Shown here in pieces: positions 58,540-61,633 of a DNA stretch of 64,000 bases (positions are counted from its first letter, which is position 1; the number at the start of each line of letters is the position of its first letter). Source of the stretch: Candidatus Brocadia pituitae (lineage in GTDB: Bacteria > Planctomycetota > Brocadiia > Brocadiales > Brocadiaceae); the NCBI GenBank assembly GCA_017347445.1, contig AP021856.1, positions 3,604,613 to 3,668,612 on the forward strand, written 5' to 3'. The notes under the pieces are model-generated. The model ran no database searches, had not been told where the DNA came from, and worked only from the letters and a program-made list of their open reading frames with translations. Both the position numbers and the translations under genes were made by a program.

Positions 58540-60678
58540 ATGGAAAGCAGACTAGATTTAGATACAGAATTTGCAAATCTTGCCATTTCAGAAGGATTCG
58601 CAACGCCAGATCAGGTGGATACCTGCCAGCACATCGCTGGTACCTTTGAGGATGAAGATCCACGAAGAAGCCTTGATGCCATCTTGGCAGAACGCGGTTA
58701 CATTACAACGGAACAAAGGGAGCGCCTCCTCAACATCCTCGAAATTACCTTTGTCTTCTGTCCACATTGTAAAAAAGGATTCAAGGAGACGTATGCCGAT
58801 CTTCAGGAAGTCATGTTTTGCAAACATTGCGAGAAGAGCTTTGAATACCAACATGACGCTCCGGCGGATATACATCAGGTATCGATAACATCAGGGAAAA
58901 CGCTGGCCTCTTTTTGCCAACAAGCATGCGATTTTTATATCGGGAAATCCCTGGGAGGAAAATACGAAATTGTAGAAAAAATTGCGGTTGGTGGCTGGAG
59001 TACCATCTATAAAGCCAAAAGAAAGATGCTGAATATTGACGATATTGTCGCCGTGAAAATATTGCATATAAACTTAAGTGACAATCCTCAGGATATTAAA
59101 CGATTTTATAATGAAGCGGCAACGGTCTGCGAACTACACCATCCCAATGCTATCCACCTGTATGATTTTGACCGTGACGCAAATGGCACAATTTACATGG
59201 CAATGGAGTTTGTCCACGGCAGGAATTTGAAGGAAATCATACGTGACAACGGACCATTCAATGTTGCAAGAATGTTGCAGGTTATTTTCCAGGTTTGCGA
59301 TGTTATCTCGGCAGCGCACAAACACTCTAAAAAAATCATACACCGGGATATTACCGCACAGAATATTATGTTGTCTCAGGCTGGTGAATTAGATAATTTT
59401 GTAAAAGTTTTGGATTTTGGCATAGCAAAACTTTGGTCCCATGACAATGTCTCCCTCACCGGAAGCATTATAGGAACTCCTCTTTATATGGCGCCAGAGC
59501 AATGGAGAGGCTCGTGCGATGAAAGGACGGATATCTATTCCCTGGGTATCATTATGTATGAAATGTTAACCGGCGAGCCACCCTTTCAAGGGGATCAGAT
59601 AGTATTGATGAATAAACATGTAAATGAAAAACCGACCCCCTTCCGGAAATTAGACAAAAAATTAGAAATTCCCAAACATATCGAACACGTTATTTTCAAA
59701 TGTTTAGAAAAAAATAGAGACAAGAGGCCCCAATCGGTAGATGAATTAAAGGCGTTATTGCAAAACGAGAAGGGAAGCACAAAGTCAACATTTGAAATCT
59801 ATTTCAGCCGCTTGGTGCTTATTACGATACTTATCTTCCTGTTAGTCACTTTATCACTTTACAGGTTTATTTGGTCTCCCGAACAGCAGAAAAATACCCC
59901 TGTTCCCACGAATAACATTCCGCTTCATACGATACTCCCCCCGGAAACCTCTGGATTTCGAAAAAACGATACCATGAATAGGCAGGTAGTCCCGGATAAT
60001 CCGGGAAAAAAATTTCCAGACAAAGAAATCAATACACAGGATAGCATCTATCAGCCCAGCATCAGCCATGGGCCAGTCCATACCCTGGAACATAGGACTG
60101 AGGGCGATAAAGGGCCCAGGCATACATTGGAGCACAAGACCCCGAGCGAGGATTCCCTTCATAAAGTGGTTGGCAAAGTCCAAAAACATAACAATGCGGA
60201 GGAACTGAAAAAACCACTGCCAGATAAAAATGAAATAATAAAAAATGAACTCCAACTGTGGTTGCTGGATTATAAAAAGGCATGGGAAAATGCAGATATT
60301 GAAGTATTAAAAGAACTAGGGCATATCTCTTCTGAAAAAGAGGAAAAGAAGTTGCGGCATCATTATTCATATGTACGCGATGTCACCGTCTCTATTCAAA
60401 ACGAAGCAATCAAGGTAAATAAAGACGGCAACCGCGCCATCATAAGCTTTGACAGAGAGGATGAATGGACAGACGAACGTGGCAGCCGGCACAGAGAACT
60501 TTTGCCAAGAATAACTAAGGTCCTTCAGAAGGAGGATGGCACGTGGAGGATTAAACAAAAAACAGATAAAACCAGCAAGCAAGAGATGATATATAAAAAG
60601 TACAAAGATTTTTTAGATGGCCTTACCATAAGATATAGTGATTTGATGAAACAAATTAATGATCATTTCAAGAAATGA
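58540..60678 (+). CDS. Membrane Ser/Thr protein kinase with zinc-ribbon and NTF2-like tail
   Basis: The 712-aa protein begins with a helical region and a zinc-ribbon-like pair CPHC/CKHC (residues 74-77 and 94-97). A PknB-type kinase domain spans about 142-405: VAVKIL lysine, HRDITAQNIM catalytic loop, LDFGIAKL, and MAPEQWRG. The Lys of HRDxK is replaced by Thr, as in some myxobacterial and planctomycete kinases. A transmembrane helix (about 421-440), a low-complexity Pro/His linker and an extracytoplasmic NTF2/Cif-like domain (about 570-700) follow. It probably links an envelope signal to cytoplasmic phosphorylation. The substrate is unknown. Confidence 0.88.
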   Translation: MESRLDLDTEFANLAISEGFATPDQVDTCQHIAGTFEDEDPRRSLDAILAERGYITTEQRERLLNILEITFVFCPHCKKGFKETYADLQEVMFCKHCEKSFEYQHDAPADIHQVSITSGKTLASFCQQACDFYIGKSLGGKYEIVEKIAVGGWSTIYKAKRKMLNIDDIVAVKILHINLSDNPQDIKRFYNEAATVCELHHPNAIHLYDFDRDANGTIYMAMEFVHGRNLKEIIRDNGPFNVARMLQVIFQVCDVISAAHKHSKKIIHRDITAQNIMLSQAGELDNFVKVLDFGIAKLWSHDNVSLTGSIIGTPLYMAPEQWRGSCDERTDIYSLGIIMYEMLTGEPPFQGDQIVLMNKHVNEKPTPFRKLDKKLEIPKHIEHVIFKCLEKNRDKRPQSVDELKALLQNEKGSTKSTFEIYFSRLVLITILIFLLVTLSLYRFIWSPEQQKNTPVPTNNIPLHTILPPETSGFRKNDTMNRQVVPDNPGKKFPDKEINTQDSIYQPSISHGPVHTLEHRTEGDKGPRHTLEHKTPSEDSLHKVVGKVQKHNNAEELKKPLPDKNEIIKNELQLWLLDYKKAWENADIEVLKELGHISSEKEEKKLRHHYSYVRDVTVSIQNEAIKVNKDGNRAIISFDREDEWTDERGSRHRELLPRITKVLQKEDGTWRIKQKTDKTSKQEMIYKKYKDFLDGLTIRYSDLMKQINDHFKK

Positions 60679-60703: not shown

Positions 60704-60733
60704 TTGACAGAAAAGGGCATTTATGTCATCCTA
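60704..60733 (+). promoter_or_regulatory. Promoter for the riboswitch-controlled gene
   Basis: TTGACA (60704-60709) is followed after 18 bp by ATCCTA (60728-60733), a weak -10. It lies 26 bp after the kinase stop and just ahead of the riboswitch, which suggests an independent transcript. Confidence 0.5.
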
Positions 60734-60746
60734 AGGAGACTTTCAT

Positions 60747-60850
60747 ATACCGATAAAGGCAAACCCTGAGTGATCAGGGGGCGCAAAGTAAAGGGTCTTG
60801 GTCTTACAGGGAAGTAAAGGCAAGAAAAGATAGCCTTACTGCCGAAGATG
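60747..60850 (+). ncRNA. Cyclic di-GMP-I (GEMM) riboswitch
   Basis: The aptamer has the GEMM hallmarks: AAAGGCAAACC at the 5' side (60755-60765), a helix CCCTGA/TCAGGG closed by a GTGA (GNRA) tetraloop, GGCGCAAAG (60780-60788), and ATAGCC followed by GCCGAAG at the 3' end (60841-60847). The G next to GCAAA is kept, which favours cyclic di-GMP over cyclic GMP-AMP. The 3' strand also pairs in a downstream terminator, so ligand binding should allow transcription of the TPR gene. Confidence 0.85.
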
Positions 60851-60888
60851 GATAGAATTTACATCTTTTGCAGTAAGGCTTTTTTTTT
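60832..60888 (+). terminator. Riboswitch expression-platform terminator
   Basis: AGCCTTACTGC (60832-60842, shared with the aptamer 3' end) pairs perfectly with GCAGTAAGGCT (60870-60880) and is followed by eight more T. Forming this hairpin would break the aptamer, so the two are mutually exclusive. Confidence 0.88.
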
Positions 60889-60904
60889 GAAAGGAGTTTT
60901 ATCT

Positions 60905-61633
60905 ATGCAGTTCATATCTTCCATTACAGCTGTTTTATGGATTGCCTTTTTATCCTTCTTTCCTTCTTCTTTTGCAATGGGAAGTGATAATAATGTTTCT
61001 GATCCTGACCACATCATGTATGAGATAAGTGAACGAGTGCTCGGAGATTTACCTTGTCAACATGATACAGGTCTGTTAAAGGAGTGTATGGGCTTTTATA
61101 TAGACAACCAGCATCTTGATAATCCTGCGGGAAGCTATAACAAGGCAATTCGCATTGGTTATCGAATTGTTACCATTGATCGTAAAGATATCGATACCTA
61201 TACTACGATGGCCTGGCTGCTGTGGTCGAAATGGGTATCCTGGACAAAAAACCCAAACCGGATGCCTGATGGTGAGGGAAAAGCAGATCAGGCCGTTGAA
61301 CTTCTGAATTGGGGAAAACAGTGGAACCAGAAATCAGAGCGTTTTTATAAAGAATCAGCCGATACCATATGGCCACTGGCGAAATATTATCGGACTGACC
61401 TCTATGAATTTGTGATTGAAAACTACCGAAAGGCGGATCTTTTGGCAGGAGAAAACGATCGTGTGAAAGTGCGGGTCCGTTTGAACCTGGGTCATGCCTA
61501 TCGCCAAATTCATGAGGATAGAACTGCTATCTCCTGGTATAAAAAAGTACTGGAAATTGCTCCGAAAAATGAGATAGCGCTCCACTATCTTGCTTGTCTG
61601 GAAAATAAATCTGAGAGGAAAAATATCTATTAA
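60905..61633 (+). CDS. Secreted TPR protein under riboswitch control
   Basis: The 242-aa protein starts after the riboswitch terminator with GAAAGGAG 9 bp upstream of ATG 60905. A signal peptide is predicted (FISSITAVLWIAFLSFFPSSFA), so it is exported. The rest is helical, with TPR-like segments: NKAIRIGYRIVTIDRKDIDTY, ADQAVELLNWGKQWNQ and a typical C-terminal TPR (VRLNLGHAYRQIHEDRTAISWY). The product is unknown, but it may act in surface or matrix processes as many cyclic di-GMP targets do. I reject a start at 60848, which lies inside the riboswitch. Confidence 0.85.
   Translation: MQFISSITAVLWIAFLSFFPSSFAMGSDNNVSDPDHIMYEISERVLGDLPCQHDTGLLKECMGFYIDNQHLDNPAGSYNKAIRIGYRIVTIDRKDIDTYTTMAWLLWSKWVSWTKNPNRMPDGEGKADQAVELLNWGKQWNQKSERFYKESADTIWPLAKYYRTDLYEFVIENYRKADLLAGENDRVKVRVRLNLGHAYRQIHEDRTAISWYKKVLEIAPKNEIALHYLACLENKSERKNIY

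Follow-up and report, generated by a model that had tools for sequence, protein, structure and literature searches.

A predicted c-di-GMP ON riboswitch before an exported TPR protein gene, one of about 48 similar copies in Candidatus Brocadia pituitae

Which signal controls the gene for an exported TPR protein in Candidatus Brocadia pituitae, and does it turn that gene on or off? Anammox bacteria are active in granules and biofilms and are genetically hard to manipulate. Their matrix has been tied to c-di-GMP by correlation only (reviewed in PMC11224092). We analysed a 64,000-nucleotide stretch of the genome (the window; positions below are those of the window unless genome coordinates are indicated), in which a preliminary description had proposed a c-di-GMP-I riboswitch with an overlapping terminator upstream of the TPR gene. 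The sequence shows the aptamer, the terminator, their overlap, the conservation, the number of copies and the enrichment among targets; we infer the ligand, the direction of switching and the physiological role. The leader is best read as a transcriptional c-di-GMP ON riboswitch, with about 48 paralogous copies in all, which would together form a cis-encoded regulon for export, adhesion and matrix functions. We assign this reading a probability of roughly 0.86.

The aptamer lies at 60749-60847 on the forward strand. In a cmscan search of the whole window it matched RF03167 (c-di-GMP-I-GGC) with 66.0 bits against a gathering score of 59 (E 2.2e-13). A covariance-model search of the genome gave RF01051 69.2 bits at the same place, far above the cut-off of 35, and the proposed GEMM-I class is thereby confirmed. 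With Vc2 numbering and columns taken from the Rfam alignment, the ligand-contact bases are the canonical G20 (60758, the last base of J1/2), A47 (60785, in J2/3) and C92 (60842), all three as in RF01051; J1/3 consists of G60841-C60842. The P2 helix (60759-60784) is conserved and covaries, also as in RF01051. Over 42 genomic copies, standard pairs occupy 325 of 336 cells, with 13 both-side changes, a result that none of 500 shuffles equalled. The P3 5' strand, AGUAA-A-GGGUC at 60787-60797, pairs with 60829-60840 according to the Rfam alignment and pair counts. P1 is very short, with two canonical pairs. An outer extension of P1 through the CAU/AUG flanks was not supported by a fixed-register permutation test (p=0.53) and is not claimed.

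Rfam ranks RF03167 first, and the aptamer could accordingly belong to the GGC variant, its ligand preference then being different or altered. In the cmscan clan competition RF03167 comes out on top, and 17 copies in the genome exceed its gathering score. However, RF01051 is matched as well, with 69.2 bits against its gathering score of 35, and the intercalating position is an A here and in 48/48 copies. The RF03167 consensus has a G at this position (CGCGAA), whereas our aptamer reads CGCAAA. We presume that 'GGC' stands for G20-G47-C92; the aptamer passes the score of the family but carries A60785 in place of the consensus G at the position-47 equivalent. On this position we rejected the filing under the GGC variant, which we regard as very unlikely, and call the element a standard c-di-GMP-I aptamer with c-di-GMP as the predicted ligand.

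Another candidate ligand is cyclic GMP-AMP (cGAMP), sensed by riboswitches of the GEMM-Ib type as in Geobacter. An A at position 20 confers cGAMP preference elsewhere, and three other copies in the genome carry A20; the logic of the expression platform is also common to our leader and the cGAMP-sensing pilM switch. The aptamer at 60749-60847 has G60758 at this position instead, as do its orthologues in the leader alignment, and G20 is found in 45/48 copies. The genome encodes 16 GGDEF domains, 14 of which could be read at the guanine-contacting position. All 14 have Asp there, one of them with an altered flanking motif, and none has the Ser that we take to mark Hypr GGDEF domains, which fits c-di-GMP rather than cGAMP. 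With G20 and no Hypr-type signature among these 14 domains, cGAMP as the ligand is disfavoured, and we give it hardly any probability. The A20 copies are located at 2823847-2823973 (-), 128045-128171 (-) and 3564239-3564324 (+) in genome coordinates. The first of these is intact, has a terminator and lies upstream of a sigma-54 response regulator gene. Its A20 recurs in just one of the five other genomes in which this aptamer was read, the remaining four having G20.

How would c-di-GMP binding be passed on to the gene? The strand AGCCUUACUGC at 60832-60842 is perfectly complementary over 11 bp to GCAGUAAGGCU at 60870-60880. Inside this stem lies a second helix of 7 bp (60844-60850/60862-60868), and a T run, a U run in the RNA, occupies 60880-60888; the three together make up an intrinsic terminator at 60832-60888. 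The segment 60828-60890 folds with -27.5 kcal/mol, compared with -9.6 +/- 2.5 kcal/mol for shuffled sequences (z -7.2); since none of 200 shuffles folds as well, the terminator is not a product of chance. The perfect 11-bp stem and its overlap with the aptamer at 60832-60842 are exactly as first described. In the aptamer fold, the same strand serves as the P3 3' strand and J1/3. The terminator 5' arm contains two P3 bulge bases, seven bases of the P3 3' strand, and J1/3, and the ligand-pairing C60842 pairs with G60870 in the terminator. Formation of the terminator therefore dismantles P3 and also takes away the ligand-pairing C. The P3 5' strand and the terminator 3' arm are rivals for one strand, and the two folds are mutually exclusive, as had been proposed. 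The Shine-Dalgarno sequence AAGGAG (60891-60896), seen in the sequence and in the leader alignment, is 3' of the terminator and outside the aptamer. Because it and the start codon are downstream of the terminator and free, the simplest reading is that the ligand turns the gene on at the level of transcription. Folding of the whole leader as a lone strand, without ligand, is dominated by the terminator, and the switching must therefore be kinetic.

A promoter-like element precedes the aptamer, with TTGACA at 60704-60709, a 17-nt spacer and a weak -10-like CATCCT at 60727-60732, all on the forward strand. TTGAC is invariant across the 11 orthologous leaders of the genus. The element was absent from the list of a simple sigma-70 scan, which missed it because the -10 region is poor. 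In the proposed mechanism, RNA polymerase would initiate at the TTGACA promoter and transcribe the aptamer, and c-di-GMP would have to bind before the terminator 3' arm is synthesized, a window of ~25-33 nt of elongation. Once the ligand is bound, 60832-60842 would be held in P3 and J1/3 with C60842 paired to a ligand guanine, so that the terminator could not form and the TPR gene would be transcribed. Without the ligand, 60832-60842 would zip up with 60870-60880 and transcription would halt at the U run. The ON response put forward in the preliminary description is upheld as a prediction by the geometry of the platform, which matches that of the pilM ON switch in that the terminator 5' arm overlaps the aptamer up to and including the ligand-pairing C.

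The regulated gene (60905-61633, forward strand) starts at ATG 60905 and encodes a protein of 242 residues whose sequence shows a Sec-like signal peptide at about residues 1-24. Its Pfam TPR matches fall slightly under the Pfam cut-offs (TPR_1, 7.5e-6). Its AlphaFold2 model is an all-helical TPR solenoid (pLDDT 80.5) whose PDB matches are TPR proteins. The signal peptide and the model confirm the earlier view of an exported TPR protein, and suggest that it probably acts as a scaffold in the periplasm or at the surface. Weak NCBIfam matches to MamA and to PrsT, a TPR lipoprotein of the PEP-CTERM system, are far under their cut-offs. Clear orthologues are found only within the genus, in 11/11 genomes including the source (67-78% identity), and in all 11 the aptamer, switching strand, terminator and TTGAC element precede the gene. 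The gene for a membrane Ser/Thr protein kinase (58540-60678, forward strand; Pkinase 6e-46) is a separate unit. It does lie directly upstream here, as had been noted, and it adjoins the riboswitch-TPR unit in 7/11 genomes, with no kinase within 1.5 kb in the other four. A functional link between kinase and TPR protein is unsupported, because the two are not always neighbours and the riboswitch is preceded by a conserved promoter-like element of its own. We consider the kinase a neighbour rather than a partner and rejected a kinase-TPR operon.

The 4.08-Mb genome contains 47 matches to RF03167 and 45 to RF01051, which combine to 48 sites; one further GEMM-I site was seen through the terminator pattern. 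An aptamer-overlapping terminator arm with at least 9 of 11 pairs and a T-rich tail is present in 39/48 copies; across 42 copies, pairing in the terminator reaches 95%. The exact terminator pattern occurs in 11/11 genomes of the genus, with no occurrence in the reversed control. The copies have different upstream flanks and promoters, and the common unit is therefore the aptamer with its terminator. Such a number of similar copies, some of them degenerate or interrupted by repeats, and several of the downstream copies apparently degenerate or placed before transposases, could suggest that the TPR locus merely carries a degenerate or dispersed mobile or duplicated repeat with no regulatory role. 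Yet the copy at this locus scores near the top, with its ligand-contact bases, terminator and Shine-Dalgarno sequence all intact. It has been retained before the same gene in every genome of the genus, P2 shows compensatory changes, and sharing is limited to the aptamer-terminator unit. We find a mere repeat scarcely credible and retain the riboswitch reading for this locus.

Genomes of the genus contain 19-56 GEMM-I copies each; those of the family's other genera have 1-28, the rest of the order has 0-11, and for the remainder of the phylum the count is mostly 0-5. In part of this survey no more than 20 candidates were scored in each genome. Several features of individual copies were also observed. 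The P3 loops of many of them, e.g. 2012600-2012723 (+), contain repeats of units like CCGTTTAAA/CCGTTCAAA, an element type also present outside riboswitches near 448 kb and at 1.12-1.13 Mb; other P3 loops contain the ACCGCAAAGACGCTAAGGTCGCAAAG repeat. Tandem aptamers at 2195099-2195292 (-), without the usual terminator, precede the gene for a large exported BNR/sortilin-like protein, and a single-aptamer paralogue of this locus is found at 2295158 (all genome coordinates). Sigma-54-like GG-N10-G[CT] elements lie upstream of 6/48 aptamers, compared with 1.5% of control windows (p=7e-5). They are located ~35-50 nt upstream of aptamers 17, 22, 34, 35, 37 and 42 (stretches L080, L084, L091, L095 and L098). 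Two copies, at sites 30 and 36, have genes for sigma-54 activators downstream.

What do these copies control? By a home-made heuristic, 25/36 usable first downstream genes encode export-like N-termini, compared with 51/184 other genes (Fisher p=3e-6). The target families include an adhesin-like PKD/Big/cadherin giant protein, an autotransporter beta-domain, Big_5, BNR/sortilin and Kelch proteins, a GspH pseudopilin operon, a glycosyltransferase, Polysacc_synt_2, a caspase-PEGA protein, an amidase, a cytochrome c' and two sigma-54 activators. An exosortase (TIGR02602, 159 bits against a cut-off of 106) and an EpsI-like protein are encoded downstream of site 2155011. Site 3883850 is upstream of genes for a Cache protein and a GGDEF-EAL protein (stretch L146:5282-8725), and a feedback on the c-di-GMP level is possible there. 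The preliminary description had guessed at a role in aggregation or matrix formation. This idea gains support at the level of the regulon, since most of the other copies' targets are exported or act at the surface; applied to the TPR protein alone, the argument is guilt by association. With one common expression platform, the ~48 copies would constitute a c-di-GMP regulon for export, adhesion and matrix genes. A wider proposal, to which we give even odds, is that in Brocadia-type anammox bacteria a single c-di-GMP ON riboswitch, whose terminator platform stays fixed, has been expanded into a genome-wide regulon of ~20-56 copies. It would be the main route from c-di-GMP to exported, adhesive and exosortase-linked proteins of the granule matrix, working partly on sigma-54 promoters and with feedback on a GGDEF-EAL protein.

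As a single element, the leader belongs to a known kind of riboswitch; the interest lies in its amplification among anammox bacteria. Some 48 ON riboswitches before exported, adhesin, exosortase and polysaccharide genes would provide a direct and testable list of c-di-GMP targets and, if true, would represent an unusually large amplification of a single riboswitch class. Geobacter genomes are known to be rich in GEMM elements, with a few tens of copies. A search of the open literature, with most subscription papers outside its scope, found no description of a GEMM expansion in Brocadia or other anammox bacteria.

The aptamer shares the P1-P2-P3 fold and the G20/A47/C92 contacts of the Vibrio Vc2 type (RF01051). 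It differs in its very short P1, in the long variable P3 loops and inserted repeats of other copies, in an ON platform whose terminator uses the aptamer 3' strand, and in being present in ~48 copies. Compared with RF03167, the best-ranked family, it lacks the consensus G. The closest parallel for the platform is the GEMM-Ib pilM switch of Geobacter, for which experiments have shown that a C75-G102 pair of the terminator competes with the ligand and ligand binding gives ON (PMC9262584). Both have exclusive folds, and in both the terminator 5' arm captures the ligand-pairing C. In the structure of pilM with cGAMP, J1/2 comprises A9-A14, J2/3 has A41 and J1/3 is G74-C75 (PMC6274999). This numbering maps to the same alignment columns, and A14 of pilM, its G20 equivalent, corresponds to G60758 in our leader. 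The two switches would thus follow the same ON logic, pilM sensing cGAMP through a site with A where the Brocadia aptamer has G20.
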